Positions 6,745 through 58,275 of a DNA stretch of 64,000 nt are shown here, piece after piece. Under the pieces are notes generated by a model. The model did not search any database, was not told the DNA's origin, and worked only from the letters and a program-made list of their open reading frames with translations. Source of the DNA: Trichobilharzia regenti. Taxonomy: Eukaryota > Platyhelminthes > Trematoda > Strigeidida > Schistosomatidae. A program made the position numbers and the translations under genes. How positions within the stretch are numbered: position 1 is the stretch's first letter; each line of letters begins with the position of its first letter. The DNA lies in NCBI GenBank assembly GCA_944472135.2, contig OX235263.1, forward strand, positions 29,255,379-29,319,378, read 5' to 3'.

Positions 6745-6870
6745 TACTAGCCTACTAGTTTTCTCGCCGGTCCCAAGCCCGGGTAAAGAGGGAGGGTTGG
6801 GGCGTGGTGCTGGCAACTCCACCCCTGTAAAACAACCAAATCTCTACAGAAACTTCAACGAATAAATATA
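6745..6870 (+). repeat. RTE 5'-UTR-like module
   Basis: The segment around gccggtcccaagcccgggta, then ggcaactccacccctgtaa and gaaacttcaa, recurs in the two short chimeric elements at 46.1 and 54.4 kb and, in weaker form, at the 5' end of the long minus-strand RTE copy (52.87-52.96 kb). Here it is directly joined to the 3' end of an oppositely oriented RTE. Confidence 0.5.
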
Positions 6871-10704: not shown

Positions 10705-11125
10705 GCTTAATTCATTTTAGATTTTGCCATCGATTGTTTGAACCGAAGTGTTCGGTCTCAGGTAGACATATCAGCTCCATATGCAGATGCTTTGACGATG
10801 TCTGGGCATGTAACTTGAAGCTAATTGGTTGATGGTGGCTATCAGTGGAATTCAGGATACACACCTTGTCGGAAAAATTAAAACTGAATTAAATAACTAA
10901 TAAGACCCACTGGACAATAGGTGGCGCTCATGGTCCAGGTGGTCTAGTGGGCAATGCTTTGGGATTTGAAACTATGGGTTCGAGTCTCGGTGGGAACAAC
11001 ATCACTCACTCACTGGGGAATGCTGGTACATTCAGCCGACGAATCCCAAATCGGACAGAGTGAGCCTTCTGGATTCCACTGCTAGTCACCATCAACCAGT
11101 TAACTACACTATTGTTTACCTTTAC
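10705..11125. mobile_element. Decayed inverted (foldback) family A hammerhead retroposon
   Basis: A minus-strand unit (about 10,705-10,877: tail, then the start of the ribozyme region) meets a plus-strand unit (from about 10,875: ggtggcgctcatggtccagg, tRNA-like head with gggttcgagtctcgg, ribozyme, tail ending caccatcaacca). Order and sequence match the better preserved foldback at 18.1-18.8 kb. The flanks atattgtctg and ctattgttta may be a worn target duplication, but this is not convincing. Confidence 0.65.
11028..11083 (+). ncRNA. Decayed hammerhead ribozyme, family A
   Basis: CCGACGA replaces CTGACGA (U4 to C), and GGACAGAG stands where GGAC followed by GAAA is expected. Stem I halves (ttcag and ctggatt) are still visible. 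Predicted inactive. Confidence 0.55.
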
Positions 11126-11677: not shown

Positions 11678-11693
11678 CTAAAAGTTTTCTTTT
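11678..11693 (+). repeat. Target-site duplication, left copy
   Basis: ctaaaagttttctttt, 16 bases, is repeated exactly at 12,078-12,093 on the other side of the foldback. The uninterrupted PLE copy at about 29,030-29,050 has one related stretch at this place. Confidence 0.8.
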
Positions 11694-11784
11694 CAAGTAT
11701 TGGTTTTGTAGGGATTTTTTTTGACAGTATGGAGGATTTCACCATGAGCTGACATCAGTTAGAGAACCACTGGAAAACCTGAAA

Positions 11785-11830
11785 GTACTTGACAGCTGTT
11801 TCGTTCTAGTTTGAGACTCTTCAGCAGTAC
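11785..11830 (-). ncRNA. Hammerhead ribozyme, family B, core intact
   Basis: On the minus strand: CTGAAGA core (position 7 is free in hammerheads), GAAA core, palindromic stem III ACAGCTGT, and the cleavage triplet GTC. Stem II (GTCT against GAAC) has one mismatch, and stem I (GTACTG against AAGTAC) has a mismatch beside the cleavage site. Activity is uncertain. Confidence 0.7.
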
Positions 11831-11974
11831 GCACCCACCGGGGTTTGAACTCAGGACCTAAACTGGCAGAAATTAGAATTCATGGGCTGGCCATTGAATC
11901 CTGTCCCATTGGCTCAATGGTCTACGAGCTCGCCTTGTAACCAGAAGGTCCTGGGTTCGAACCCCGGTTGGCGC

Positions 11975-12020
11975 GTACTGCCGAGGAGTCCCAAACTAGG
12001 ACGAAACAGCTGTACAGTAC
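11975..12020 (+). ncRNA. Hammerhead ribozyme, family B, mutated core
   Basis: CCGAGGA replaces CTGAGGA (U4 to C). Stem II GTCC/GGAC, GAAA and the ACAGCTGT stem III are kept, and the cleavage triplet is GTA. Stem I is GTACTG/CAGTAC. The U4 change should abolish activity. Confidence 0.7.
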
Positions 12021-12077
12021 TTCCAGGTTTTCCAGTGGTTCTCTAACTGATGTCAGCTCATGGTGAAATCCTCCATA

Positions 12078-12093
12078 CTAAAAGTTTTCTTTT
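12078..12093 (+). repeat. Target-site duplication, right copy
   Basis: Exact partner of 11,678-11,693. Confidence 0.8.
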
Positions 12094-12486
12094 TGACGAA
12101 ATAATCAACTAGGCTGTACATTCGAATATTTATAATAAATGGGTAGGAAAGTTCCAGAGTAGTTTTTGGTCAACGGTTAGATTAATAAAATTATAATTAG
12201 GAATTAAAATGCCATAATAAACAGGGGGACGAATATAGCTCAGACAAAGTAGCATTATAATTACTGAGAAGATTGACATATTGTGCAATTAGGAGTTAGA
12301 AATATAGAAATAACAAAAATAAACAGGATATTTGGATAGAAAATCTAGTGGGATCATAACTAATGGGACGAATAATTGTTTATGCAGTCGGAGATTAAAT
12401 ATGTAGAAATAATAAAATAACATGAATAAAAAGGAAGTTTGGATAAGAAAGTCAATGGGATATTCACTATAAGAAGAATTACCTGT

Positions 12487-12720
12487 TTATGATGGCCACG
12501 ACAGGGACAAGGGTTGAACGTATTTCTTTTGGATACATAGAGTGGGTTTGAGCTTTTGGATGGCTAGTGACTCGGCTATGCCCAGATGTGTTAATTTTAC
12601 TCCCTTTGATAGGTTTGATCGAATCTTGTATACTATTTTAAAGGATTTTTCGAATGGCGCTGAATATCTTGAACTGACCAGATGTTCTGTCATTATATTG
12701 AAAACTACATAAAAATGCAA
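12487..12720 (-). pseudogene. PLE C-terminus
   Basis: A 77-codon minus-strand frame: MTEHLVSSRYSAPFEKSFKI, then IRSNLSKGVKLTHLGIAESL and the hallmark end KPTLCIQKKYVQPLSLSWPS. This is the segment after the GIY-YIG core. It is nearly the same as the end of 30,357-30,746, so both are copies of one PLE family. The endonuclease core itself is not present here. Confidence 0.75.
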
Positions 12721-16009: not shown

Positions 16010-16230
16010 GAAGTTATTGGTCATTCAGTCATTTGGACGGAATCCAGTCGCCCATCGATTATAACGCTTTGTGGTCTTGTACCTTGAAGATATTGGGTTC
16101 GATCTCCGGTGGAGTCATGGGGACATACTGATGAAGTGTCCTCAACTAGGATGAAACAGTTATCTAGTGATTCCTGGTCTTTAGTGGTTCTCCAATTGAA
16201 GTCACTTCGTGTTCAAAACTTAGTATCCAG
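16010..16230 (+). repeat. Decayed family B hammerhead retroposon
   Basis: tRNA-like B box gggttcgatctccgg at about 16,089, followed by the ribozyme region and the end ttagtggttctccaattgaa, matching the family B body ccagtggttctctaactgat. In the ribozyme, ATGAAGT replaces CTGANGA while GATGAAAC keeps the GAAA. Inactive. I see no foldback partner. Confidence 0.6.
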
Positions 16231-18092: not shown

Positions 18093-18104
18093 AGAGATAA
18101 CCGG
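18093..18104 (+). repeat. Target-site duplication, left copy
   Basis: agagataaccgg is repeated exactly at 18,825-18,836 around the composite hammerhead retroposon. Confidence 0.8.
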
Positions 18105-18251
18105 TTATTGAATTGAATTCTTGATTTTCCCGTCGATTGATTGGACCGAAGTGCTCGGTCTCAGGTTGACATGTCGGCTTCTTGTGCAGATGCTTCGACG
18201 ATGTCTGGGGATTTTGATTTGTATACAATTGGTGGATGGTGGCTAGCAGTG

Positions 18252-18302
18252 GAATCCAGGATGCGCGTTTCGTCCTAATTGGGACTCGTCAGCTGGATGT
18301 AC
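18252..18302 (-). ncRNA. Hammerhead ribozyme, Sm-alpha-like, core intact
   Basis: Minus strand: stem I ATCCAG/CTGGAT, core CTGACGA, stem II GTCC/GGAC closing CAATTA, core GAAA, stem III from CGCGCAT with one mismatch, cleavage triplet ATC. All conserved core bases are present. The layout is that of the schistosome hammerhead used in structural work, with its very short stem III. Confidence 0.85.
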
Positions 18303-18744
18303 CTGCATTTCTCAGTGAGTGATGATGTTCCCACCGAGGCTCGAACCCAGTGCCCATAGTTTCAAACGCCAAAGCGTTATCCACTAGACCACTTGGGCCA
18401 CGAGAGCCACCTCTTGTGCGACGGGTCATATTAATTATTGAATTGAATTCTTGATTTTCCCGTCGACTGATTGGACCGAAGTGCTCGGTCTCAGGTTGAC
18501 ATGTCGGCTTCTTGTGCAGATGCTTCGACGATGTCTGGGGATTTTGATTTGTATACAATTGGTGGATGGTGGCCAATCAATCGACGGGAAAATCAAGAAT
18601 TCAATTCAATAATTAATATGACCCGTCGCACAAGAGGTGGCTCTCGTGGCCCAAGTGGTCTAGTGGATAACGCTTTGGCGTTTGAAACTATGGGCACTGG
18701 GTTCGAGCCTCGGTGGGAACATCATCACTCACTGAGAAATGCAG

Positions 18745-18796
18745 GTACATCCAGCTGACGAGTCCCAATTAGGACGAAATGCGCATCCTGGATTCC
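18745..18796 (+). ncRNA. Hammerhead ribozyme, Sm-alpha-like, intact
   Basis: Stem I ATCCAG/CTGGAT, core CTGACGA, stem II GTCC/GGAC, core GAAA, perfectly self-complementary stem III ATGCGCAT with no loop, cleavage triplet ATC with the cut expected after 18,787. The loopless stem III means single-unit cleavage should be weak and paired RNA molecules more active, as known for Sm-alpha hammerheads. Confidence 0.88.
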
Positions 18797-18824
18797 ACTG
18801 CTAGCCACCATCCACCAATTGTAT

Positions 18825-18836
18825 AGAGATAACCGG
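18825..18836 (+). repeat. Target-site duplication, right copy
   Basis: Exact partner of 18,093-18,104. Confidence 0.8.
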
Positions 18837-21480: not shown

Positions 21481-21496
21481 TCTTTAGCTACGACTA

Positions 21497-22125
21497 CAGG
21501 CGGAACTGACGAGGATATCAAAGCCAGAATCGGAAAATCAACGCAAGCTTTCATTACTCTCAAGTCTGTGTGGAGGTCAACACTCAGCACTCAGCATCAG
21601 AAATAACATCCGTCCGGATTTTCATCTCCAATGTAAAGTCAGTCAGTGCTACTCACTATACGGATCAGAGACTTGGCCAGCGCGTCATAAAGAGCATCTC
21701 AAACAAACTACAGACCTTCATCAACAGCTAGCTGTCTTCGCTCAATACTTCGCTCAAGATCAGATGGCCGGCCAGAAAAGATCAGGAACATGGATCTCTG
21801 GGAGCGAACCAATCCAGCAGGAACCGATTGTGAAACAAATAGACAGGAAGAAATGGAGGTGGATTGGCTGGCCATACGCTGAGGAAACCATCAAGTGACA
21901 TCACCAGACAAGCCATCACTCGAGTGGGACCCGAAAGGGAAGCGGGCGGCGAGTTGGTCGTCAGTGCAAGGGTGACTTGGAGAAGGTCATCTGAGGAAGA
22001 GATGAAAGCATGTGGGCAGACTTGGAACGGGGTGAAAAAGTCGGAAGAAAACAGAAGGCAATGGAGGTGCGCAGCTGAAGCCCTATGTTCCTCTAGGAAT
22101 TAAAGGATGCAATAATAATAAATAA
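21497..22125 (+). mobile_element. RTE-type retrotransposon, 3' end, young copy
   Basis: Plus strand from ggaactgacgaggatatcaa to an AAT tail. The last 540 bases are almost identical to 24,972-25,512. Frame 21,864-22,103 (79 codons) holds HTLRKPSSDITRQAITRVGP and ends CSSRN; the preceding WRWIGW block is in another frame, so one shared frameshift separates them in both copies. Confidence 0.8.
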
Positions 22126-22130
22126 TAGTA

Positions 22131-22984
22131 AGTTCCTTAGCTATATGGTGTGATGACGCTCATTTTAATTCTAGTTTTTGTTTGGTGAGATGATATGTTC
22201 ATAGGACAAATTACTGCATTTATTTTTAAAAGAAATAACTTGTTCGCCAGTGGCATTTATAGCCATTCAGCGTCAAATCTAATTATTAGTTCTTTAGCAA
22301 CTGTAACTGTGAAGAAACCTAAAATGAATGAAATGCAAAAAACACTTGCTACTCAAATATGAAAGGATTTATGACTCACTATAGGGCCATACTGTGAAAC
22401 GTATCTGGTAGTGACTTGTTAAACAGAGTAGATACTGAATTCTGAAAGTTATCACCTCAAAGGTTTTAACTTTCCTATAACTTCCTTTATCAGATGTGGT
22501 GCTTTGACACTTCATGCAACTTGGTTGAATGAGTACACTGTAAAACGAATCAATGAACTGTGACGTAAACTTAGAAGTTTATAAATACGCTAATTACGTT
22601 TTTGTGACTATATTTCCCCTAGAATAGTACAGAAGTTTAAAAAAGAAATAAGACGACACTCTCATCCAAAATATATCAAACCATTTTGATAAAGTCAAAA
22701 CAAAAAAGGCTTTTATCTTTACCTCCTTAACTTGTTTATATCTTCCTCCAAAATTTTGATTGTTATTGTTGTTATGACTATTTTGCGTGAGAGAATTACA
22801 ACAAAGGCACGTCTTATTATTATTGATTAGAAAAATGGTTCAAACACATGTTTTGGTTTTGTTAGCTTAAAAATGATAAATCGCCAAATATATGGTGGTA
22901 TCGCTATTCTCAGAGTTGGTAGAAACTAGAATTTATGGATTATTAAAGCTGACACTTCTTGTTAGTGGTAATGTATTATATCAA
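22131..22984. other. No recognisable gene or repeat
   Basis: AT-rich; nothing seen. Confidence 0.45.
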
Positions 22985-24971: not shown

Positions 24972-25512
24972 CAGACAGCAGCACTCAGCATCAAAAATAA
25001 CATCCGTCCGGATTTTCATCTCCAATGTAAAGTCAGTCAGTGCTACTCACTATACGGATCAGAGACTTGGCCAGCGCGTCATAAAGAGCATCTCAAACAA
25101 ACTACAGACCTTCATCAACAGCTAGCTGTCTTCGCTCAATACTTCGCTCAAGATCAGATGGCCGGCCAGAAAAGATCAGGAACATGGATCTCTGGGAGCG
25201 AACCAATCCAGCAGGAACCGATTGTGAAACAAATAGACAGGAAGAAATGGAGGTGGATTGGCTGGCCATACGCTGAGGAAACCATCAAGTGACATCACCA
25301 GACAAGCCATCACTCGAGTGGGACCCGAAAGGGAAGCGGGCGGCGAGTTGGTCGTCAGTGCAAGGGTGACTTGGAGAAGGTCATCTGAGGAAGAGATGAA
25401 AGCATGTGGGCAGACTTGGAACGGGGTGAAAAAGTCGGAAGAAAACAGAAGGCAATGGAGGTGCGCAGCTGAAGCCCTATGTTCCTCTAGGAACTAAAGG
25501 ATACAATAATAA
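24972..25512 (+). mobile_element. RTE-type retrotransposon 3' end, near-identical duplicate
   Basis: Almost the same sequence as 21,580-22,120; the 79-codon frame at 25,258-25,497 encodes the same protein as 21,864-22,103. It differs in the 5' truncation point and in a few bases at the tail (gaactaaaggatacaataat against gaattaaaggatgcaataat). Confidence 0.8.
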
Positions 25513-28260: not shown

Positions 28261-28562
28261 TAACAAAGGATTATAAAGTAAACCACTGGATCACGTATTA
28301 AAAGAAGGTTTATTTCAGGAACTTACGAACTGAATGTCGTAAAACACGTAACACACCTTTGCCAAGATTTATCTTAACTGTTTAGAGATAGAAGATTCGA
28401 AAAACACAATAAGAACATCTTTTGTAGGACTCATCTTATTCTGCAAAAGCTGCTCTTATCACGTCATTCAAGATTATCCAGGGAAACAGTATCATCAAGC
28501 AAAGGATTGTTAATTGACCAAGATACCACGTAAAAATTTCTTAGACTGAAGCTTATATTTAC
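28261..28562. other. No recognisable gene or repeat
   Basis: Nothing seen. Confidence 0.4.
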
Positions 28563-28576
28563 ATATATATTTTAAG
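28563..28576 (+). repeat. Target-site duplication, left copy
   Basis: atatatattttaag, repeated exactly at 28,661-28,674 around a mini-foldback. AT-rich content lowers its weight. Confidence 0.65.
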
Positions 28577-28660
28577 TATTGATTTTGTAGGGATTTTGTT
28601 TGATTGCATGGAGGATTTAATCATGAGCTGACATGAGCTCAGCTCATGATTAAATCCTCC
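28577..28660. mobile_element. Mini-foldback made of two family B tails
   Basis: Only 84 bases: the family B tail in minus orientation (tattgattttgtagggattt, then ggaggatttaatcatgagct), followed at once by the inverted inner part of the tail (agctcatgattaaatcctcc). No head and no ribozyme. It has the same left end as the 11.7 kb foldback and is enclosed by its own 14-base duplication. Confidence 0.75.
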
Positions 28661-28674
28661 ATATATATTTTAAG
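28661..28674 (+). repeat. Target-site duplication, right copy
   Basis: Exact partner of 28,563-28,576. Confidence 0.65.
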
Positions 28675-29249: not shown

Positions 29250-29261
29250 AAATGTAGAAAT
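29250..29261 (+). repeat. Target-site duplication, left copy
   Basis: aaatgtagaaat is repeated exactly at 30,119-30,130. Confidence 0.85.
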
Positions 29262-29320
29262 TGCATGGAGGATTTAATCATGAGCTGACATCAGTTAGAG
29301 AACCACTGGAAAACCTGGGA

Positions 29321-29366
29321 GTACTGGACAGCTGTTTCGTCCTAGTTTGGGACTCCTCAGCAGTAC
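29321..29366 (-). ncRNA. Hammerhead ribozyme, family B, intact
   Basis: Minus strand: stem I GTACTG/CAGTAC, core CTGAGGA (the free position 7 is G), stem II GTCC/GGAC closing CAAACTA, core GAAA, loopless palindromic stem III ACAGCTGT, cleavage triplet GTC. All invariant bases are present. Confidence 0.85.
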
Positions 29367-29978
29367 GCACCCACCGGGATTCGAACCCAGGACCTTCTGG
29401 TTACAAGGTGAGCTCGTAGACCATTGAGCCACTGGGACCCGATCCAATGGTCCTTGAATTCTAACTTCTGCCAGTTCATGACATAGCGCGACCACTTCGC
29501 AATGTCTTCTTCGATGAGTTACTGCCTCATCTTCGACCTGCTGTACCCTACTGGTCACGGCTTCCCACTAGAACCCCAGGTTAACTGCCTGAATAAGGCC
29601 AGTCACTAGTGACCATCAGATGAATTTTCAAGTATTGGTTTTTCGTAGGGATTTTGTTTGATTGCATGGAGGATTTAATCATGAGCTGACATCCCTACAA
29701 AAAAAACCAATACTTGAAAATTCATCTGATGCTCACTAGTGACTGGCCCTATTCAGGCAGTTAACCTGGGGTTCTAGTGGGAAGCCGTGACCAGTAGGGT
29801 ACAGCAGGTCGAAGATGAGGCAGTAACTCATCGAAGAAGACATTGCGAAGTGGTCGCGCTATGTCATGAACTGGCAGAAGTTAGAATTCAAGGACCATTG
29901 GATCGGGTCCCAGTGGCTCAATGGTCTACGAGCTCACCTTGTAACCAGAAGGTCCTGGGTTCGAATCCCGGTGGGTGC

Positions 29979-30024
29979 GTACTGCTGAGGAGTCCCAAAC
30001 TAGGACGAAACAGCTGTCCAGTAC
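29979..30024 (+). ncRNA. Hammerhead ribozyme, family B, intact
   Basis: Plus-strand twin of the 29.3 kb ribozyme, identical in core and stems. The cut is expected after 30,018 (GTC then CAGTAC). The tRNA-like B box lies about 20 bases upstream. Confidence 0.85.
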
Positions 30025-30118
30025 TCCCAGGTTTTCCAGTGGTTCTCTAACTGATGTCAGCTCATGATTAAATCCTCCATGCAATCAAACAAAATCCCTA
30101 CAAAAAACCAATACTTGA

Positions 30119-30130
30119 AAATGTAGAAAT
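30119..30130 (+). repeat. Target-site duplication, right copy
   Basis: Exact partner of 29,250-29,261. Confidence 0.85.
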
Positions 30131-30356: not shown

Positions 30357-30746
30357 TTATGATGGCCATGGCAAGGACAGGGGTTGGACGTATTTCTTTT
30401 GTATACAAAGCGTGGGTTTGAGCTTTTGTATAGCTAGCGCCTCGGCTATGCCCAGATGTCTTGATTTTACTCCCTTTGATAGGTTTGATCGAATCTTGTA
30501 AATGATTTTGAAGGATTTTTCGAATGGCGCTGAATGTCCTGAATTCACCAGGTGTTCTGTCATCGAACTATTTACCCGTTTTCGTTCTCCTTTTACTAGC
30601 CAGGCTGGATAGTGTTCACGAGCGCGTTTTTCAAGTTGGCGCATGGTACGGCCAACGTACTCAGCTCCACAAGAGCAAGTAAACTGGTATATGCACGTTG
30701 AGGTGGCCCAATGCGACAGCTTGTCTTTCGCGTTCTGGCTGAACAT
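30357..30746 (-). pseudogene. PLE GIY-YIG endonuclease and C-terminus
   Basis: A 129-codon frame: CIYQFTCSCGAEYVGRTMRQ holds the Cys pair and the GIY-YIG core (EYVGRT), then KRAREHYPAWLVKGERKRVN, MTEHLVNSGHSAPFEKSFKI and the end KPTLCIQKKYVQPLSLPWPS. All parts of the PLE endonuclease are in one frame. A frameshift at about 30,740 separates it from upstream sequence, and the element is truncated at about 30,785. Confidence 0.82.
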
Positions 30747-30790
30747 GTTTTTGAGAGGAGTTCACATGACTTCGATTCTAGATACAATGA

Positions 30791-31359
30791 ACATATCAGA
30801 ATTTTTATTTTTAGACTTTAATTTGAGGGAATTGACTTTTTTTAGTTTTGATTTCTTCATAAAATGACGCCATTTAGGGTTACCGAAAACCAGGCAGCAC
30901 CAGACAGATTTTTTTAACTCCGTCTGAGATTTCTCAGCAATATCGACACATAACCTCAAAATCCTTAGTTTGTTAGTCAAGTACCTGTTCCATTCAAATT
31001 TCAGATTGAAATCCAATTTTATTTAAAACTCTGTCAGTGGCTGCCATACAGTGTGGCTATGAGAAGTGATCGCTATGCTCTGTTACCAGGTCTTTAAGGG
31101 TTCTGTAAATGACGTAGGTACTTGGCGAATCTGGGAGTTGAGGAATTTAAATACAATGGTCGTTTAGTGGGAACACTAAGTGACATAATTTCTGCTCTAT
31201 GAGAAGACCTTCGTTTCGTTTCTTATCATAGATATGATTCTGTGACAAACGCTTACAATAAAAAGTGGTCTTAAGTCTTTTTTCGATTGCATCTGATCAC
31301 CCGTGGTTAAAATTTTAACCTACCCTTAATTTAGCTAAATATTTATGAGAATAGCTAAG
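30791..31359. other. No recognised gene
   Basis: A minus-strand frame at 30,762-31,016 (84 codons) is not similar to any family here. Otherwise nothing seen. Confidence 0.4.
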
Positions 31360-32105: not shown

Positions 32106-32324
32106 TGACGGTGGAGTGAAATGACACTGGTATTCTCAAGTATATTCCCTGTAATTCTTTCTGGAAGATTAGTGCCACAGTTATAATTCAGTAAATAAAT
32201 GCCTAAGACTTTGAAACAAACGACAGTAGAGTCTGTTTAATGCAGTGTTGACTCCCCAACTAAACCTTAAAAGAAAATTCTGTTTGTTGAGCATAAACTA
32301 TAAGTCTAACAAGACATAAAATAT

Positions 32325-32625
32325 TCAAGTGTTGGTTTGTAGGGATTTGATTGGTTACGGGATTTCATCATGAGCTGACATTAGTTACAGAACTATTGAA
32401 AAACCTTGGAGTAATGGACGGCTGTTTCGTCATAGTTTGGGACTCTTCATCAGTACTCACCCACCGGGATTCCAACCCAGGACCTTCTGGTTACAAGGCG
32501 AGCTCGTAGACCATTAAGCCACTGGGACCCGATCCAACGGCCGACCCATGAATTCTAATTTCTGCCAATTTATGACATAGCGCGACCCCTAGTCAATGTC
32601 TTCGGCGAGTATTTGTCCTCACAGA
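32325..32625 (-). repeat. Family B hammerhead retroposon, single orientation
   Basis: Minus strand from the tail (ttggtttgtagggatttgat) through ribozyme, B box (gggattccaacccagg on the plus strand), A box region and part of the body. No inverted partner and no clear target duplication found. Confidence 0.7.
32411..32456 (-). ncRNA. Hammerhead ribozyme, family B, mutated core
   Basis: ATGAAGA replaces CTGANGA (C3 to A) and stem II has a mismatch (GTCC against TGAC). GAAA is kept and the GTC triplet is intact. Predicted inactive. Confidence 0.6.
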
Positions 32626-33834: not shown

Positions 33835-33846
33835 ACACTTGTAAAT
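33835..33846 (+). repeat. Target-site duplication, left copy
   Basis: acacttgtaaat, repeated exactly at 34,921-34,932 around the PLE. Confidence 0.8.
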
Positions 33847-34920
33847 TAAAACAATTAGTCCCATTTGATAAATTTGAATAAGACATTAAGAGGACAAATT
33901 TCGCGAGATATCATTTCGCAGTCTCTTTACAACCGCTTTACAACTAACATGGTTAACAATAATAAAATAAAGGTCATGACAATTACTCAGTTAAATAATA
34001 TATATATATCTTCATTTTACCAGTTTTGTTCCTATCCAGTATAAACGTTCCCTAGTGAAATGTTTGTTCTCAAGGGCCCGAAAAATATGCCTGAGTGACA
34101 CACTGACGGATGAGCTTCGACATATACTTTCAGTTTTATTAGCTAATGGTTATCCGGAGAGCTTTATCACTCGTCACAGTAAAGAAAAACCACATCTCGA
34201 AAAGACAGCTTCTGTACCAAAGAAAGCTATCTTTATTAATCTACCATTCAACGGCGACCAGATTATGCAGTTGACAACTCAAAAACTTCGGTCAGCCATC
34301 AAACGCACATTCTACGCTGCATCTCTTTTTCTCACTTGCCGAACATTTTCGATCCCTGTACCTACGATTAAAGGACGAAATTCTGTGGACTCTACTTCAA
34401 ACTGTATCTACAAGTTCACCTGCAGCTGCGGTGACACCTATATAGGTAGAACTAACAGAATGTTCCAATGTCGTCGAAAAGAACATGTTCCAAAATGGTT
34501 ACTAAAACATATAGAAAATCCAAATACAGTTTATCTGAATAGAAATCTAGCATCATCCATTGCAAAACACTTATTAATGTCTGGTCACAAAATAAATATT
34601 AATGACTGTTTCACAATTATTTCACATAACTCTAATTCAAGGTTGGTTATTGAAGGTGATGGAAGCACTTTGGATTAATCACATACAGCCTAAACTGCGT
34701 GTACAAAAATCAATAGACTTCAATCTTCCCCTACCATGAACTGACTACCTGACCTATCTAAATATGATTGGTCATTAGTATGTACTTTTGTTTCTTATTT
34801 AACTGAGTATTTGTCATGAACTTTATTTTATTATTGTTAACCATGTTAGTTGTAAAGCGGTTGTAAAGAAACTACGAAATGATATCACCTCGCGAAATTT
34901 GTCTTCTTAATGCCTTATTC
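33847..34920 (+). mobile_element. Complete short PLE insertion with inverted terminal arms
   Basis: From left: a 28-base extra tail, an inverted arm (33,875-33,997), a 5'-truncated coding part in plus orientation, and the matching inverted arm (34,796-34,918). Arms share, for example, caaccgctttacaactaaca on opposite strands and differ at a few places. A 12-base target duplication bounds the insertion. This is the PLE layout with pseudo-LTRs in inverted orientation. Confidence 0.85.
34013..34678 (+). pseudogene. PLE RT thumb, linker and GIY-YIG endonuclease
   Basis: From about 34,030: the VPIQYKRSLVK-type thumb, then LTDELRHILSVLLANGYPES, KAIFINLPFNGDQIMQLTTQ, then SNCIYKFTCSCGDTYIGRTN with the Cys pair and GIY-YIG core, RKEHVPKWLLKHIE and SIAKHLLMSGHKININDCFT. 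A single frameshift near 34,650 separates it from the C-terminal HIQPKLRVQKS end. Apart from that it is an open frame of over 200 codons and the best kept endonuclease in the window together with those at 23.6 and 30.4 kb. Confidence 0.83.
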
Positions 34921-34932
34921 ACACTTGTAAAT
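34921..34932 (+). repeat. Target-site duplication, right copy
   Basis: Exact partner of 33,835-33,846. Confidence 0.8.
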
Positions 34933-34974
34933 GTCATTCTTTTCTGTTTTTGATAATTATTTGAGAAAAGGTTA

Positions 34975-35670
34975 GTTACAAAGATAATTCTGACGTACTT
35001 AATACGGGTCTGGAGAATTTGTAGTGAAGATATTGTTGATGAGGAACTGAAATAAGTGGAAGAAACCCTCATAGATAACGGGGATTCATTACGCTTCATA
35101 GAGGTCAATGGCAAATTACGTGGGAGAAACACATAGATTGGTAAGGTAACTACAAATGTGCTGCACCTAAACTTCAGATTTAGGGGTGACACTGCGAGTG
35201 AGATACTTAGAAATCATCTGAAGAGATTATTGAGAAGAACGTTTTTTACTGCTACTTTACGAATAACCTAGTCTAGTCATCCACAGGTGCACCATAACGT
35301 CAAGGAAAGGTTACCTCAACTGTCTAATTCCATATGCATGTAGATTTTCACCTACTCTTGCGGATGTAGGTACATAGGACGTTCGTCAAAAAGCAAATCT
35401 CATCGCGTTCCAAAGCACCTCCCAGTTTCGCTGAGCAAAGGAGAATGTAGAGATATTAGTTCATCAATATTGTAGCATTTTGTAGATACTGACCACGCAG
35501 TATCTGACACATCGCTTAATATAGTCTACAAAGTTCAACAAAGCTTGACAAAAAGGACACGAATGCATTTGCATCGTAAAGTAGGAGGCCGTGGCAATAA
35601 ATAACATCAAGCCAGAACTTTGTGTATAAAAACAGTTTGTACTATCTCTTTTTTTACCATGGTCTTGATT
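34975..35670 (+). mobile_element. Penelope-like element, decayed
   Basis: Plus strand, broken by many stops: gatattgttgatgaggaact (thumb), gataacggggattcattacg, then tgagaagaacgttttttact, the Cys/GIY-YIG region at cttgcggatgtaggtacata, and cagaactttgtgtataaaaa (the LCIQK end). It lies just right of the preceding PLE but belongs to an older family. Confidence 0.65.
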
Positions 35671-35917
35671 CAACTGTGTAATTCACATTAAAACTTTGTT
35701 ATCCTTCTTTATTCCATGTTCCATTTTTATTTTCCTTTTTTATAACTTTATGTTATTACATTGTAACAGTTTATCTAGTCTACTATTCTGGTAATATTTA
35801 ACCTATCCTATATCTCCATTATATTATATTCAAATATTCACCTTTCCGAATGTAATTTATTTTCCTATCATATATTTCACACATATCTGTTGAACTTTAG
35901 GATGACATCAACTCAGA
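35671..35917. other. AT-rich stretch, nothing recognised
   Basis: No motif seen. It may include the 3' untranslated region of the PLE to its left. Confidence 0.35.
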
Positions 35918-36153
35918 TAAAGCAGTAAGAAGACGTAATTTGTCTAAATCGTATAATGTATTTGCGGAACACATTTCGAACAATCTGATCACACACAGAC
36001 TTGTCATAGGAATATATATGAAATTAATAAAGAGTTAGGAGGTGAGAAGATAAACTTAGGTCAAGTTAAAAGAACATACTGAAGGTCAAAATAACAATGA
36101 AGATCACTAAACCAAACATGAGAGGTAATAGTACACCTGCCCCGGTATGAAAA

Positions 36154-36680
36154 CTAAGTTTTCCAAGGAAGGTGGTTTAGTGTGATGACGAACTGCTTTT
36201 GAACGCATAAAGATGGTTTGAACATCCCAATTACTAGGGCTTCCACAAACTTTAGGATACACTCCAAACACGTTTTATAGATAGGTTTAAAAGATCTGTT
36301 AACATCAATTTTATGTCCTGTCTCTATAATATGTTTCACAATAGAGGAGGTAGGTCTTCTGTTCTCATTTTTATTGGATTCTAGGGATTCTATTTGCTTC
36401 TGAAACCATTTAGGAATATGCTCTGAAGCCCACCCTTACTTGCAGAGATCGATAAGTTCTTCCTAGGTATGGGCAGTCCCGCGTAAATTCAAATTGGTAA
36501 ATACAGTGGGATGTGAGGTCATTTTTCGCATGTTCGAAGGGCTTAGATAGATATAATGACTTTACATTCCCTACTATTATGATATTAGCTGCATTAAAAG
36601 TCTTTTTAACCGCAGCGTTCAGTCTCTGTCTAGTTATCAAGCTGCTTTGATGCCCCATATAGGGTAGCTTGATGTACACG
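36154..36680 (-). pseudogene. PLE endonuclease and C-terminus, left arm
   Basis: Frame 36,410-36,679: MYIKLPYMGHQSSLITRQRL, then KTFNAANIIIVGNVKSLYLS, CIYQFEFTRDCPYLGRTYRS with a damaged Cys/GIY-YIG core, ending early. Frame 36,154-36,339: KHIIETGHKIDVNRSFKPIY and MFKPSLCVQKQFVITLNHLP. Two frameshifts. Confidence 0.7.
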
Positions 36681-37235
36681 TCTTTCTTAGGGGCGAGTTA
36701 AAGAGTGGGTCTTGGTGTTCTGTCTACTTAATATCTCCTGATGAACTTGTCTGGATAGTTGTTATCAACCAGAGTTTGTGTCAACTTTCTTTCTTCTTCA
36801 TCAAGTGTGTCTTTGGTGCATATTCGTTGGATTCTACTGAAGAGGCAACTTACTAAGGCTCTTTTATACCGAACAGGGCAGAAACTGTGGTAATTAAGAT
36901 ACTGTCTTGTTTAGTTATTCATTCATATAACTAATCAATTGTGACTCATAATCCTACACACCAATATTATTACATATTGTAATATGAATTGTAATCATAA
37001 GTGATATGCCTTGTTGTGCCACCTCAATTTTAAATCGAGTAAATGAAGTTCAGATTGACATATCACTTACGCCTGTAGCATAGGAAGACGACAGTTTATC
37101 TTTCCTAGACATTTTGCTTAGTCGACGGCTTGATAGATCAATAAAACTATCTATTTATAGAAAACCTACCTAGACAGTATGGTATCATAATTATCACAGT
37201 TTCTGCACTGTTCGGTACAAAGAAGCTTTATTAAG

Positions 37236-37511
37236 GTGCTTCTTCATATTCCTAAATGGTTTCAGAAGCAAATAGAATCCCTAGAATCCAATAAAAATGA
37301 GAACAGAAGACCTACCTCCTCTATTGTGAAACATATTATAGAGACAGGACATAAAATTGATGTTAACAGATCTTTTAAACCTATCTATAAAACGTGTTTG
37401 GAGTGTATCCTAAAGTTTGTGGAAGCCCTAGTAATTGGGATGTTCAAACCATCTTTATGCGTTCAAAAGCAGTTCGTCATCACACTAAACCACCTTCCTT
37501 GGAAAACTTAG
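37236..37511 (+). pseudogene. PLE C-terminus, right arm
   Basis: A 91-codon frame: LLHIPKWFQKQIESLESNKN, then KHIIETGHKIDVNRSFKPIY and KPSLCVQKQFVITLNHLPWK. Its last 61 residues equal the left-arm frame at 36,154-36,339, showing how similar the arms still are. It lacks the GIY-YIG core. Confidence 0.75.
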
Positions 37512-37849
37512 TTTTCATACCGGGGCAGGTGTACTATTACCTCTCATGTTTGGTTTAGTGATCTTCATTGTTATTTTGACCTTCAGTATGTTCTTTTAAC
37601 TTGACCTAAGTTTATCTTCTCACCTCCTAACTCTTTATTAATTTCATATATATTCCTATGACAAGTCTGTGTGTGATCAGATTGTTCGAAATGTGTTCCG
37701 CAAATACATTACACGATTCACACAAATTATATTCTCTTATTGCTTTGTCTTAATATTATTATAGCATAAATGTCACTTTAGTATTTCCACTCACTGTCAA
37801 ACTGCCACACGCAGACACAAGAAAATTAATCGTTGTTGAAATCGTTGAC

Positions 37850-38800
37850 AGATAACGGGCAAAGCGGAAACAGGAATAAAATGGACTCACACGAAAAGAG
37901 ACTTGGAGGATCTGGACTTCGCACATGATATATGTCTGATTAACCATAAGCTGGAAGATATGCAAGTGAAAAGCAACAAGCTGGCTGAAGAAGCATCAAA
38001 GATAGGACTTCAATTCAGGTGAACATAGAGAAAACAGAGGTGATGAAGATTCCTGGACACATCGACAACAACAGACAACAATCAGCCAGCATAAATGGGA
38101 GGAACCTGAAAGAAACAACCTCCTCCACCTACCCACCTACTTGGGAAGCATCCTTTCAACTACAGGTGGGCGGAACTGACGAGGATATCAAAGCCAGAAT
38201 TGGAAAATCAACGCAGGCTTTCATTACTCTCAAGTCTGTGTGGAGGTCAACACTCAGCACTCAGCATCAAAAATAACATCCGTCCGGATTTTCAACTCCA
38301 ATGTGAAGTCAGTCAGTGCTATTCGCTATACGGATCAGAGACTTGTCCAGAGCGTCATAAAGAGCATCTCAAACAAACTTCGGAACTTCATTAACAGCTG
38401 TCTTCGCTCAATACCTTGCTCAAGATCAGATGGCCGGCCAGAAAAGATCAGGAACAGGGATCTCTGGCAACGAGCGAACCAACACAGCAGGGACCGATTG
38501 TGAAACAAATATGCAGAAAGAAATAGAGATGGATTGGCTGGGCATACGCTGAGGAAACTATCAAGTGACTTCACTAGACAAGCCATCACTCGAGTGGAAC
38601 CCGAAAGGGAAGCGGGCGGCGAGTTAATCGTTCAGTGATGGGGCGACTTGGAGGAGGTCATGTGATGTGGGGTGAAAGCATGTGGGTAGACATGGAGTTG
38701 GGTGTAAACTCTAGCAGAGAACCAAACGCAGTGGAGACGCGCAGCTGAAGCCCTATGTTCCTCTAAGAATTAAAGGATATAATAATAATGTTAATAATAA
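37850..38800 (+). mobile_element. RTE-type retrotransposon, from RT core to tail
   Basis: Plus strand. It begins near the polymerase motif C region (WEDLDFAHD-like; an FADD-type box with His in place of Asp), continues with KLEDMQVKSNKLAEEASKIG, EDIKARIGKSTQAFITLKSV, the KSISNKLRNFINSCLRSIP block and the C-terminal part, and ends in an AAT-rich tail at 38,780-38,810. Frames at 38,019-38,276, 38,240-38,503 and on to 38,740 overlap because of frameshifts. Confidence 0.78.
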
Positions 38801-38810
38801 TAATAATAAG

Positions 38811-39639: not shown

Positions 39640-40935
39640 CAGAAGAATTAGGAAGGATGATATTACAAATTCATGAGTTTATAGTTTCTACTAAAGGCCA
39701 GGGCAATATTAGCGGCTGGACTTGCTTCTCTTGGATACAGAGCGCCGGTTGTTTGAGGCGAATCGCAATAGACTCTGGTGTTTGGAGCCTGCGGTGCTTC
39801 GATGTTTTTGGTAATTTATTTGGCACCCGGTATAATATAGAGAAGGATTCATCTACGCTGGCTTTGTGGCCGGTTTGCACCAGATGTTCCAATATCGAGC
39901 TGTTCACTACACCTTTACTTAGCCATGCTGGGAGATGCTCTCGAGGTTGCACGAAAAATCGAGTTCCTAGAGCAACGGCCAATATAACTGGTTCCCCTAC
40001 AAGCTCAGTTGAATTGGTAGATACAATTTGAAGTGGCTAGTCTAGGAACTTCATCTTTCAGTCGAGGAATCACCATCGGTCGTGTAGAGAATAATACGTG
40101 TAGTTCGCCAGCATTAAAATTTATTTGAACTGATTTTTTTAATTTCTTCGCAATTATCTCGCTTTGTATATCGCCCATGAATTGTAGTCGTATATAAAGA
40201 GGCTTCTTTTTTACAGATAGTGAGTAGTCCTTTTCCGTTTTCTTTGTCATGTGTTTCTTGATAAATTTGTCGGGATAGCCATTTTCGATCAAAGTATCAT
40301 ATACAATGCTTAATTCATCTTCAATTACTTCTTCTGAGCATATAGCTCTAACTCTGTGGCTGAGGTTCTTCAATAAGTTTCTTTTATACTTGATAGGAAC
40401 GAAGCTTTGAAAATGTGTATATTGTCCTGTCCAAGTGCTTTTTCTATCCAAATATCTTTTTATGCCACCATCTGGTTTTCTTGTAAGTAGGACATCCAGG
40501 AAGGCAATTCTGTCTTGGGATTCCTCTTCGCATGTGAATTTCATAGCCGAATGTACTTCATTGAATTCAGTAATTATTGTACTCTTATCAGAACCATTAT
40601 CACAAAGAATAAAGGTATCATCCATATATCAGCAATAAAATGAGAGCTTACTGATAAGGTTGTTCAGAGGTCCATTTTCTAGCTTACTTAGAAAGAAATC
40701 AGCCGAAATGGGGTCCAATGGGGAGCTCATCGCCACCCCGTCCACTTGTCTGTAAAGCATGCCGTTAAATTTGAAATTTACATTCATGGTACATCTTAAT
40801 ATCAATTCTTTTAGGATCCCAGTATGTGTGCCGATGTTTATCGACAGCTTCTCCACTTGTTCACCTATGTAATTACCTGTTTCTATTAAAAGTACATTTG
40901 TGAATAATGATGTTATGTCCAGAGATATCATGGTT
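39640..40935 (-). mobile_element. Penelope-like element, most complete coding copy
   Basis: Minus strand, covering RT motif A through palm, thumb, linker, GIY-YIG region and C-terminus in about 1.3 kb. It is 5'-truncated at about 40,935. I see no inverted arms directly at its ends. Confidence 0.82.
39671..40931 (-). pseudogene. PLE polyprotein (RT plus GIY-YIG), three lesions
   Basis: Motif A: MISLDITSLFTNVLLIETGN with its Asp. Motif B: GMLYRQVDGVAMSSPLDPIS (the GxxMGSPLSP-type box). Motif C: YMDDTFILCDNG, just after an in-frame stop at about 40,625. Then EEESQDRIAFLDVLLTRKPD, RKSTWTGQYTHFQSFVPIKY, LIENGYPDKFIKKHMTKKTE, GDIQSEIIAKKLKKSVQINF and SNCIYQFN. A second stop follows this, and the YIGR-like core is read through a frameshift near 39,990. 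The end is REHLPAWLSKGVVNSSILEH, ALCIQEKQVQPLILPWP. Over 400 codons with about three lesions, the best RT in the window. Confidence 0.85.
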
Positions 40936-42964: not shown

Positions 42965-42975
42965 TGATTAAACAC
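42965..42975 (+). repeat. Target-site duplication, left copy
   Basis: tgattaaacac, repeated exactly at 43,368-43,378. Confidence 0.72.
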
Positions 42976-43367
42976 TGATTACAGGATTTCATCATGAGCT
43001 GACATTGGTTAAAGAACCATTAGAAGGCCTGGGAGTAATGGACAGCTGCTTTGTCCCAATTCGGGACTCTTCAGCGGTTCGAATCCATAACCTTCCCAAT
43101 ATAAGGCCAGCTTGTAGACCATTAAGTCTCTGGGACCCCATCCAGTGGCAAGCCCATGAATTCTAAAATCACGACAGAGTGCGACCACTAGCCAATGTCT
43201 TCGGCAAGTATTTGTCCTGACGGCCTACCTGCTGTACCCTACTGGTCACGACTTCCCACTAGAACCACAGGTTACCTGCCTGAATATGGCCAGTCTCCAG
43301 TGAGCATGATGATGAGCTCATGATAAAATTCTGCAACCAATCAGTCAAATCCTCACAAATCAATACT
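42976..43367. mobile_element. Asymmetric foldback of family B hammerhead retroposon
   Basis: A nearly full minus-strand unit (42,976-about 43,300: tail, ribozyme, decayed head, body to aggttacctgcctgaatatgg) is followed by a short plus-strand tail (43,308-43,367: gatgagctcatgataaaatt to aatcaatact). The two outer ends are again the same tail inverted, and one 11-base duplication encloses both. Confidence 0.75.
43033..43078 (-). ncRNA. Hammerhead ribozyme, family B, mutated core
   Basis: Minus strand: CTGAAGA and stem II GTCCC/GGGAC are kept, and the palindromic ACAGCTG-type stem III is nearly intact, but GAAA has become AAAG. Predicted inactive. Confidence 0.6.
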
Positions 43368-43378
43368 TGATTAAACAC

Positions 43379-54620: not shown

Positions 54621-55206
54621 AATGGCAAATATTTTTTAAAGTTAATAGAAGAAAAAGGAAATCAATTTTTCAAAGGAAATGTAGTTGATTTCTGCTAGTA
54701 TTTTATTTTTGGCATGATTCGTTAGTGAATTTATTACTTCTTGGAATGTCATTAATTTCACTCACAGTTTTAGATTAATAATCATTATTTAATACAAGCA
54801 AAAGAAAAGGAAAAGATTTCTGCCTAAGTTACATTGACAGTGCCACTACAAGCATGTGAAATAACCTATGGTAAACCACAAGGAAATACAATGATTTTGA
54901 CCTTGTTTCTTGTAAGTTGTTTTATTAATCGTGCATATGTTCGTAAAAGCGGGCGTGTGTGAGTTTACACACACACACACATACACCTTGGTGTGTTTTA
55001 CTGTCCAAAACATTTTTTTTCACACCTCCTATACAGAAATCTTTGATTTTGGGTATTTTTCCGGAATTATTTCACAAAGTGTTGTTATCGCATACTTTGA
55101 TATGCAGTTCCATTTATTACAATTACCATAACTATTTAAGTTACTGGAATTCTCACCAGGCATCTGTGCGAAAAGTTAGTCTACTCAACAGCCGAAAAAC
55201 AAATTT
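54621..55206. other. No recognised gene; a CA microsatellite
   Basis: A run of CA dinucleotides at about 54,967-54,982. The two overlapping frames here (54,931-55,131 and 54,959-55,243) read through it and are not genes. Confidence 0.45.
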
Positions 55207-55460
55207 AAGTGTTGGTTTGCAGGGATTTCATCTGATTAGTTAGAGAACCACTGGGAAACCTGAGGGTACTGGACAACTGTTTCGTCTTAGTTTAAGAATC
55301 ACCATGTGGTAGGACAATCCCGGGTTCGAAACCCCGTAGTTGGGTGCTTCTGAAGAGTCCCAAACTAGGGCGAAACAGACGTTCAACACTGTTAGGTTTT
55401 TTAGTTATCCTCTAACCTATGTCAGCTGATAATAAAACCCTGTAACCAGTTAAGAAAGAA
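55207..55460. mobile_element. Foldback of family B hammerhead retroposon, both arms short
   Basis: A minus arm (55,207-about 55,305: tail and the 3' half of the ribozyme) is joined to a plus arm (about 55,306-55,460: B box gggttcgaaaccccg, ribozyme, tail). The arms meet inside the head and ribozyme. I did not find a convincing target duplication. Confidence 0.65.
55344..55390 (+). ncRNA. Hammerhead ribozyme, family B, core intact but altered stem III
   Basis: CTGAAGA core, stem II GTCC/GGGC, GAAA core and a triplet TTC. Stem III (ACAGACGTT) is no longer a clean palindrome, and stem I needs a bulged C. Activity doubtful. Confidence 0.55.
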
Positions 55461-55526: not shown

Positions 55527-55540
55527 GAGCAGTATTATTC
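55527..55540 (+). repeat. Target-site duplication, left copy
   Basis: gagcagtattattc, repeated exactly at 57,268-57,281 around the PLE. Confidence 0.85.
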
Positions 55541-55662
55541 TATATATGTCCAAACCAATTTCACTTCCAACGGTTTGAAAAAATTTGGGCATTGGGTATA
55601 TGATATTCATTATAATAAAGGTTTTTGTATTTCCCAATGAATGAAAAACAAAACGAGATTGT

Positions 55663-55708
55663 TTTTACTGACGTTTCGCTATTTAACGCTAATAGCTTTC
55701 TCAAAGTA
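55663..55708 (-). ncRNA. Hammerhead-like motif in left PLE arm
   Basis: Minus strand: TTGAGAA stands where CTGANGA is expected (changes at positions 3 and 8), stem II GCTAT/ATAGC is perfect, then GAAA, an ACGT stem III and the triplet GTC. This layout is typical of hammerheads reported in PLEs, but the core is altered. Confidence 0.45.
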
Positions 55709-55997
55709 TTATTAAACCGGAATTTACAAAATCTCAGCATATATATAACAAAGAGTTAGGGGGTGAGAAAAAATATAGACTTAGTTCAACTTAAAAGGGT
55801 ATATTGAAAGTCAAAATAACAATGAAGATCGTTCAAACCAAATATCAAAGGTAATAGTATATCTGTTATTATATCAAAACAAAGTTTACTAACTTGACCA
55901 TCGTTCGTTAGTCTGGGGTCATTTTCGGTTGTCAAGTTGTAGAATTGGTAAAGATAACAAAATCGAGTATAGATTGTGATTGATTATCGTCGCCGAT

Positions 55998-56330
55998 CTT
56001 CACATGAATAAATTCGAAAATAATATCTTTCCAAGCATACTCCCTCCTAAAATATGGTTAAGATATGTGGATGATACTTTTGTAGTACTAAAATGAGATC
56101 TACACAATTCATTCCTGGAGAAAATAAACTTTGTATCTCCCAGAATCCAGTTTACTTCGCAAGCAGAATCAGACGTCGGTGAACTACCATTTCTAGACTG
56201 CCTAGTTAAGAGGAGGGAAAACGGACATTTTAGTATATCTATATTCATGAAGGAAACCCACTCCAATATATATTTAGACTTCAAATCATCACACCCCGTC
56301 AGCGCAAAGATTTCAGTTGTTTCAAGTCTT
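55998..56330 (+). pseudogene. PLE reverse transcriptase, motif C region
   Basis: From atgaataaattcgaaaataa: a short frame with WLRYVDDTFVVLK (motif C) ending in a stop at 56,095, then in another frame NFVSPRIQFTSQAESDVGEL, PFLDCLVKRRENGHFSISIF and KISVVSSLLRRAHSL. A microsatellite-like ATT run (56,350-56,380) interrupts the coding part after this. The frame reported on the opposite strand here is a chance reading. Confidence 0.75.
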
Positions 56331-56479
56331 CTTAGAAGAGCACACTCTCTTATTATTATTATTATATTATTATTATTATTTTCTTCAAAATATCGGACAC
56401 ACTTCAAAGGAACCTTGTCCATATAAAAGACCAAATTCCTAAAGATTCTCTATCTAATTGTGTCTATAAAATAAAATGC

Positions 56480-56836
56480 TTGGAATGTGATGCGATCTAC
56501 ATCGGACAAACATCTCAAGAAATCAAAATCAGAAGAAATGAACACCGTAGAGCATCTCTTCGACCACCAAGAAATCCAACTGAACTAGAAAAACTTCAAA
56601 ATTCATCAGCCATAGTCTGTCTACATGCTATAGAATCAGGCCACAAAATTGATTTTGACAATATTGAAATAATCCAGAAAAACTTCAGAAACCACAAAGA
56701 ACGTCTAACATCATCAGAAGCACTTCATATCAAGTGGAATTTAAATTGCCTGAATAGGAATGACGGACTCAAACAGAATCTGACCTGGCTACAACACCCC
56801 CCTCCCCATGAACTGGCAAAATCAAAACAAATGTGA
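56480..56836 (+). pseudogene. PLE GIY-YIG endonuclease
   Basis: ECDAIYIGQTSQEIKIRRNE with the GIY-YIG core and the following Arg, HRRASLRPPRNPTELEKLQN, SAIVCLHAIESGHKIDFDNI and SSEALHIKWNLNCLNRNDGL. The first Cys of the Cys pair is in the upstream KIKCLEC piece at about 56,470. It stays open to the stop at 56,836. This is a PLE lineage distinct from those ending in LCIQKK. Confidence 0.8.
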
Positions 56837-57165
56837 TAAGCAAGTTCACTATGAAAACACACACTACTTTCATAATTCTACACACTGATAAAATCCAACA
56901 ATCTATACTCGATTTTGTTATCTTTACCAATTCTACAACTTGACAACCGAAAATGACCCCAGACTAACGAACGATGGTCAAGTTAGTAAACTTTGTTTTG
57001 ATATAATAACAGATATACTATTACCTTTGATATTTGGTTTGAACGATCTTCATTGTTATTTTGACTTTCAATATACCCTTTTAAGTTGAACTAAGTCTAT
57101 ATTTTTTCTCACCCCCTAACTCTTTGTTATATATATGCTGAGATTTTGTAAATTCCGGTTTAATA

Positions 57166-57212
57166 ATACTTTGAGAAAGCTATTAGCGTTAAATAGCGAA
57201 ACGTCAGTAAAA
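57166..57212 (+). ncRNA. Hammerhead-like motif in right PLE arm
   Basis: Same motif as in the left arm, in plus orientation: TTGAGAA, stem II GCTAT/ATAGC, GAAA, ACGT, triplet GTC. Two core positions differ from the consensus. Confidence 0.45.
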
Positions 57213-57267
57213 ACAATCTCGTTTTGTTTTTCATTCATTGGGAAATACAAAAAACCTTTATTATAAT

Positions 57268-57281
57268 GAGCAGTATTATTC
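57268..57281 (+). repeat. Target-site duplication, right copy
   Basis: Exact partner of 55,527-55,540. Confidence 0.85.
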
Positions 57282-57889: not shown

Positions 57890-58275
57890 TTCAAGTATTC
57901 GTTTCTGAGGATCCCATTGATTGGTTACAGGATTTCATCATGAGATGACATCGGCTAGACAATCATTGGAAAACCTGGGAGTACTGGACAGCCAGCTGTT
58001 TCGTCATAGTTTGGGACTCTTGAGCAGTACGAACCCGCCGGTGGGGTTCGAACCCAGGGCCTTCTGGTTTCAAGGCAAGCTCATAGGCTATTAAGCCAAT
58101 GGGAACCGACCCAATGGCTCATGAGTTCTAACTTCTGCCAATTCATGACATAGCGCGATCACTGGCCAATGTCTTCGGCGAGTATTACTTCTCGCACTCG
58201 ACCTGCTATACCCTACTGGTCACAACTTCCACTAGAACCACAGCTTAACTGCCTGAATAAAGTCAGTCACTATCG
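57890..58275 (-). repeat. Family B hammerhead retroposon, single full unit
   Basis: Minus strand, nearly full length: tail (ttcaagtattcgtttctgag and tggttacaggatttcatcat), ribozyme, B box (ggggttcgaacccaggg on the plus strand), A box region, body to gaataaagtcagtcactatc. No inverted partner. Confidence 0.75.
57981..58030 (-). ncRNA. Hammerhead ribozyme, family B, mutated core and longer stem III
   Basis: CTCAAGA replaces CTGANGA (G5 to C). GAAA is kept. Stem III is extended to CAGCTGGCTGT by a short duplication, and the triplet is GTC. Predicted inactive because G5 is essential. Confidence 0.6.

Follow-up and report, generated by a model that had tools for sequence, protein, structure and literature searches.

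In Adineta vaga, Penelope-like elements (PLEs; Pen2a and others) carry head-to-head inverted pLTRs within 8–10-bp target duplications, and that report describes a 31-bp tail as optional on one inverted pLTR and one inverted pLTR as 37 bp shorter; self-priming was tentatively proposed there for the palindromes (PMC3846280). The purified PLE protein of Anolis (Poseidon) cuts and extends both DNA strands, with cutting in AT-rich DNA; its cDNA begins at either of two neighbouring internal sites, one at each limit of the tail. In vitro, the start site did not differ between strands and insertion was unaffected by hammerhead mutants (PMC11167929). PLEs are also regarded as strong candidate mobilisers of animal retrozymes, because the two co-exist and have type I hammerheads and tandem copies in common (PMC7229834, PMC7761336). 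Inverted-pair anatomy and both-strand priming have been published for PLEs, and we did not find such a report for hammerhead retroposons: the open-licence literature, searched mostly at the level of listings, yielded none on inverted pairing, the passages of PMC8490949 that cite the descriptions of schistosome alpha elements (Ferbeyre 1998; Laha 2000) mention no inverted paired insertion, and the word "inverted" is absent from the main text of PMC7229834.

We analysed a 64-kb stretch of Trichobilharzia regenti DNA (the window), in which two hammerhead retroposons had been predicted to form a palindrome near 29 kb. This pair (P3, 29262–30118) consists of two near-identical 401-nt hammerhead units placed head to head, with their 5′ ends inward and 3′ ends outward. 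The palindrome is real: self-comparison gave near-perfect inverted arms of 384 nt (29260–29643 and 29702–30085; 99% complementary), rather than the ~370 bases originally given, and a second alignment gave 382 nt with 2 mismatches (99.5%). Both hammerheads are full length and lie above the gathering score of 34; cleavage in the right unit presumably falls between 30018 and 30019, following hammerhead rules. Terminal direct repeats are present in the left unit (33 nt, 29260–29292 = 29661–29693) and in the right unit (29691–29721 and 30094–30122). The putative "tRNA-like head" of the original prediction corresponds to motifs that look A- and B-box-like by eye, whereas ARAGORN called no tRNA. ORFs of 110 aa or more all lie outside 29250–30130, and the 401-nt unit (GC 49%) is without RT and GIY-YIG coding. 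One segment of P3 (29641–29705, 30094–30110) varies among its three copies (CCCTACGAAAAACC, CCCTACAAAAAAAACC, and CCCTACAAAAAACC), and these differences are either copying errors or later changes.

Table 1. Features of the window. Long and short refer to outer 3′ ends with and without the extra tail.
Feature	Position	Strand	Details
P3 target duplication, left copy	29250..29261	.	AAATGTAGAAAT, 12 nt
P3 left hammerhead unit	29262..29693	-	432 nt, one 401-nt period + ~31 nt; outer 3′ end short
P3 left type I hammerhead	29321..29366	-	Rfam RF00163, 53.5 bits
P3 left B-box-like motif	29377..29387	-	by eye
P3 left A-box-like motif	29421..29431	-	by eye
P3 inner joint	29691..29693	.	3-nt overlap (ATC) of the two units
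P3 right hammerhead unit	29691..30118	+	428 nt, one period + ~27 nt; outer 3′ end long
P3 right A-box-like motif	29914..29924	+	by eye
P3 right B-box-like motif	29958..29968	+	by eye
P3 right type I hammerhead	29979..30024	+	Rfam RF00163, 53.5 bits
P3 tail	30084..30118	+	35 nt, right outer end only; 28/35 bases A or C
P3 target duplication, right copy	30119..30130	.	AAATGTAGAAAT, 12 nt
PLE endonuclease-region fragment beside P3, host element	30360..30836	-	match to Trichobilharzia proteins
PLE endonuclease-region fragment near ~12.3-kb empty site	12490..12693	-	match to Trichobilharzia proteins
P1, 401-nt family	11678..12093	.	left arm long, right short; tail 34 nt; 16-nt duplication; arms 92% alike
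P2, 401-nt family	28562..28674	.	left long, right short; tail 32 nt; 15-nt duplication
P4, 401-nt family	42965..43378	.	left short, right long; tail 28 nt; 11-nt duplication
P5, 401-nt family, old	55205..55445	.	left long (by eye), right short; no duplication seen
P6, Smalpha-like hammerhead family	18093..18836	.	left long (468 nt), right short; tail 118 nt; 12-nt duplication
P11, older Smalpha-like pair	10715..11102	.	left long, right short; tail 107 nt; no duplication seen
P7, PLE pair	55527..57281	.	inverted pLTR-like repeats around RT/GIY-YIG-like coding piece; tail 68 nt, left end only; 14-nt duplication
P8, PLE pair	33835..34932	.	inverted pLTR-like repeats around PLE coding piece; tail 29 nt, left end only; 12-nt duplication
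P9, PLE head-to-head pair, exception	35915..37750	.	arms 98% alike; no duplication or tail difference (by eye)
S1, single 401-nt-family unit	32324..32620	-	long end; no duplication seen
S2, single 401-nt-family unit	57891..58272	-	long end; no convincing duplication

A single target duplication encloses P3, as had been proposed, although a few of its nucleotides could equally belong to the element at either end. When the boundaries, read by eye first, were used as anchors, a match of at least 12 nt arose in 4 of 20,000 random placements; in a looser test, in which any match up to 160 nt outside the BLAST ends was accepted, 1.3% of 1,500 placements matched by chance. The empty site also proved correct: the joined flanks of P3 align to 12255–12385 in the PLE paralogue, which has a single copy of the site (at ~12300) with one base different, and P1 is reciprocally missing from the paralogue at ~29.03 kb. 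The endonuclease-region fragments near P3 and near its ~12.3-kb empty site, which belong to related PLE copies, are 87% alike in DNA over 279 nt. One duplication and an empty site bear out the part of the original prediction that both units entered in one event.

P3 is not a lone oddity, since the window contains five pairs of the 401-nt family, and PLE copies are arranged likewise. We resolved nine further head-to-head pairs, namely four of the 401-nt family, two Smalpha-like pairs, and three PLE pairs. The family at 18.1–18.8 kb, with a period of 330 nt, presumably resembles Smalpha in sequence. The five 401-nt-family pairs stand against two resolved single units (S1 and S2) and one fragment (16076–16217), which was excluded as too diverged for end placement. 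When 16 arms (17 if the diverged fragment is counted) were placed at random, the mean number of head-to-head neighbours was 0.33, and seven or more occurred in 0 of 100,000 simulations. P1–P5 were found by a self-comparison separate from the inverted-repeat listing, which skips palindromes matching across their own centre and is thus not a full census. The ten pairs leave out P10 (41181–42199) and P12 (3962–4892), whose ends were not placed, and P13 (17719–19710; spacer 1.6 kb), whose arms have no hammerhead match and whose spacer contains P6. The P10 inverted repeat is 78% alike, lies near PLE coding at 39674–40730, and has a low-complexity 13-nt candidate duplication, AAAAATTATTTTA (looser-test chance 0.007); that of P12 is 67% alike and overlies an ORF that is GIY-YIG-like by eye only.

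A single target duplication of 11–16 nt was found in seven of the ten resolved pairs (401-nt family, 4/5; Smalpha-like, 1/2; PLE, 2/3). The looser-test chance was 0.005 for P1, P2, and P7, 0.013 for P3, P6, and P8, and 0.023 for P4, values that are not negligible for any one pair alone. The duplications are richer in A+T than the window (74% vs 63%). No duplication was recognisable in P5, P9, and P11; the arms of P5 and P11 are diverged (71% and 79% alike), whereas P9 has none despite well-matched arms. For the anchored test, arm alignments, and tail sequences, boundaries were set by hand after reading, at the duplication where present; the unit-end comparison and the looser test used BLAST ends, except for P5 in the looser test, which was hand-set.

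In nine of the ten pairs, an extra tail is present at only one of the two outer 3′ ends; the ends of P9 are equal (by eye). Under free choice of ends, the probability of at least nine long-and-short pairs in ten is 11/1024. Within the 401-nt family, the outer 3′ ends lie at two sites, with one of each per pair. Six of the seven long ends (those of P1–P4, S1, and S2) map to unit positions 397–402 by BLAST, and the seventh was placed by eye, since an internal deletion in the left arm of P5 stops the BLAST match short of the long end; the short ends of P1–P5 all map to 355–364 (5/5, BLAST). Long ends lie no more than about 4 nt from where a CAAYACTTG motif stops (GAATACTTG for S2), and short ends lie inside or immediately past CCTCCATGCA or its subfamily variant, CCTGTAAYCA. 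Arm alignments gave tails of 28–35 nt in this family, a range that omits P5 because its internal deletion blocks measurement. Visual comparison of the RNA folds of four tail regions revealed no structure shared among them, and the outer-end sequences examined have neither a poly-A nor a simple-repeat tail. No motif common to retroposon and PLE ends was visible either, so the driver cannot be assigned to an individual PLE.

In contrast to the outer ends, which cluster at two sites, the inner ends differ in all five 401-nt-family pairs, the shortest arm being the right one of P2 (24 nt) and the longest the left one of P3 (432 nt); both P2 arms are strongly 5′-truncated (61 and 24 nt). In P3, the two units overlap by 3 nt and the matching arms are separated by 58 nt. 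Because the inner ends vary in this way, the palindrome was very probably made at the site and not copied as a cassette. Past the predicted hammerhead cleavage point, P3 continues for 65 nt to its left outer end and for 100 nt to its right outer end. A linear monomer cut there would extend no further, and the longer cDNAs would therefore have to derive from uncut or religated RNA. The P2 arms and the P4 right arm are too short to show reading through the cleavage point. The overruns past one period are similar in the two arms of P3 (~31 and ~27 nt), whereas that of the P6 left arm is 138 nt. Since more than one unit was copied in P3 and P6, a circular or tandem template would be needed, and the window contains no direct tandem of full units, only terminal overlaps of 33, 31, and 139 nt. 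Read-through of the cleavage site and copying of more than one unit are compatible with the circular RNA of retrozymes, and the near-equal overruns in P3 suggest that each cDNA was extended around a circle until it came back to where it had begun, although P6 differs.

An RT followed by GIY-YIG in one protein is a PLE hallmark. We call the coding pieces in the window PLE because of their RT/GIY-YIG-like homology to Trichobilharzia proteins and this known anatomy: one T. regenti match (P0008) is a single protein with both an RT portion and a GIY-YIG-like portion, and the window pieces match both. The PLE-like ORF at 33995–34675 is 84% identical to a T. regenti "GIY-YIG domain-containing protein" over 57% of its length, which points to an avian schistosome or near relative as the probable source of the window, and none of the 16 protein matches bears the name Penelope. 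Both arms of P9 contain PLE coding directed away from the centre (36157–36910, minus; 37018–37508, plus). Pfam at its default cut-off, run on 30 of the 37 listed ORFs, returned one LINE-like RT only; with E up to 10, nine ORFs gave GIY-YIG and RT matches that were only sub-threshold and lay amid chance names. The LINE-like RT fragment lies at 59865–60224. A second PLE coding fragment (34966–35665) is directly downstream of P8 in the same orientation. A dispersed repeat of ~635 nt occurs in both orientations (1155–1786, 21493–22131, 24979–25512, 38169–38803, 58927–59537, and others); these five copies are 85–99% alike, the LINE-like RT fragment adjoins the 58927–59537 copy, and no inverted pair of this repeat with a spacer under 1 kb appears in the window's inverted-repeat listing. 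A weak type-P1 twister ribozyme match lies at 6744–6800 (37.5 bits vs a gathering score of 67.2), and a hammerhead pattern scan of viral and prokaryote contigs gave 0 matches.

We consider it quite probable that the hammerhead retroposons are non-autonomous animal retrozymes of schistosome alpha-element type and were inserted by Penelope-like machinery that primed from both sides of one staggered cut. PLE machinery is put forward as the inserter because the anatomy of P3, with a 35-nt tail at one end only, matches published PLE anatomy; two PLE copies of this window, P7 and P8, are built like the hammerhead pairs. The account starts from what can be read directly in the DNA, namely one duplication, an empty site, head-to-head order, two sites for the outer ends with each pair using both, variable inner ends, read-through of the cleavage site, and copying of more than one unit in P3 and P6. 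Beyond this, we infer a PLE protein that would cut both strands of AT-rich DNA with a stagger of ~11–16 nt, after which the freed 3′ end on each side would prime reverse transcription of retroposon RNA, presumably circular or tandem, at either of two internal sites (28–35 nt apart in the 401-nt family). The two cDNAs would extend toward each other and stop at variable points, their 3′ ends would be joined over little or no homology, and filling in of the stagger would leave one target duplication around a head-to-head pair. The differences between the ends and at the joint of P3 fit such a pair of separate cDNAs primed at two sides of one cut. Against PLE-type insertion, P9 is head to head with closely matching arms and yet has neither tail difference nor duplication, the diverged pairs P5 and P11 also lack a visible duplication, and the tails of the Smalpha-like pairs (107–118 nt) and P7 exceed the published 30–40 nt, a length that fits the 401-nt family and P8 but not P6, P7, or P11.

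The Anolis assay leaves the one-of-each rule unexplained, because its start sites show no strand difference, and it gives the ribozyme no role in insertion, because an active hammerhead was not needed there (PMC11167929). A tentative and rather doubtful extension of the both-sides priming model is that two PLE enzymes, acting as a pair, hold a single circular hammerhead RNA that serves as template for both arms of each pair. If the first primer started at the inner (short) site, its cDNA would grow away, and the second primer would then start behind it at the still-free outer (long) site; if the long site were used first, the short site would soon be covered, and a single copy without target duplication would result. 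If true, this would account for the one-long-one-short rule, for the similar ~30-nt overrun in both P3 arms (P6 differs), and for S1 and S2 both being long-ended and without duplication.

Among other explanations, self-priming would have an antisense RNA or a single cDNA fold back and prime itself, with the inverted repeat then being inserted. This would agree with the published description of PLE inverted copies as often palindromic at the junction (PMC3846280) and with the centre of P2, which is nearly symmetric with ~7 nt between the matching arms. However, self-priming predicts near-symmetric inner ends and a small loop, whereas the gaps are 58 nt in P3 and 98 nt in P6, and it does not predict fixed sites for both outer ends within one target duplication; we regard it as improbable. 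Twin priming by LINE machinery, known from L1 and the SINEs that depend on it, is a still poorer candidate. Twin priming does use both strands as primers, the duplication length is compatible with it, and the window contains a LINE-like RT fragment, but its product is a single copy with one part inverted, not two copies. Here, both arms contain the same sequence, each P3 arm being a full unit, the outer ends examined lack poly-A or simple-repeat tails, and the two alternative ends match PLE behaviour. We therefore set this mechanism aside, as the original prediction had done, because the arms duplicate the unit instead of splitting it.

The original prediction held that the two units entered as a foldback. 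A mobile foldback cassette, meaning a ready-made palindrome that is replicated and integrated whole, would give one duplication around both units and near-identical arms, but it would retain one inner joint. In the 401-nt family, inner ends instead differ in 5/5 pairs, while outer ends are confined to two sites and, within each pair, only one of them has the tail. We rejected the cassette, which we consider highly improbable, because the inner joints vary among these pairs; in P3 itself, the 35-nt outer tail difference, the 58-nt gap, and the 3-nt overlap, together with the varied inner truncations of the other four pairs, speak against foldback entry. Palindromes do occur in long reads and the P3 arms are 99.5% alike, but an unsplit palindromic read would produce neither a target duplication nor two unlike outer ends, nor would it leave paralogues with reciprocally empty sites; arms have also diverged in other pairs (P1, 92%; P11, 79%), while two unrelated adjacent insertions would leave two duplications instead of one with empty sites, so that an assembly or library artefact and two independent events are both scarcely credible.

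Which enzyme moves animal retrozymes is the question that this end anatomy touches, as it would tie two hammerhead families to PLE-type insertion. As support for PLEs as retrozyme mobilisers, it is more direct than shared features or co-existence, and it is still indirect. The one-long-one-short rule also bears on how PLEs make inverted copies, for which self-priming was tentatively proposed in the 2013 Adineta paper (PMC3846280), and it can be counted in any schistosome assembly.

With schistosome alpha elements (Smalpha/Sjalpha), the retroposons share a SINE-like structure, a hammerhead, and a schistosome host, and the period of the P6 family is close to the 335 bp reported for W36.2/SMalpha (PMC8490949); the 401-nt family is a separate sequence family. 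Like the metazoan non-LTR retrozymes described in the cited passages, the 401-nt unit is a short non-coding repeat with a type I hammerhead whose template was copied past one unit, with a period of 401 nt against retrozyme RNAs of ~170–400 nt and a GC of 49% against values below 45–50%; those retrozymes form direct tandem repeats, whereas the copies here are mostly inverted pairs with at most about one unit per arm (PMC7229834, PMC7761336). P3 resembles the Adineta PLEs, as far as these are described, in its head-to-head repeats, one short duplication, and ~30-nt extra tail on one end (PMC3846280), and the Anolis Poseidon PLE in its hammerhead, its AT-rich target, and a tail delimited by two sites of RT initiation (PMC11167929). 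In these descriptions, the Adineta and Anolis PLEs are autonomous and encode an RT-endonuclease, whereas the 401-nt unit has no long ORF and carries putative Pol III-like boxes, and, unlike the published PLEs, both arms of a 401-nt hammerhead pair may be full length.
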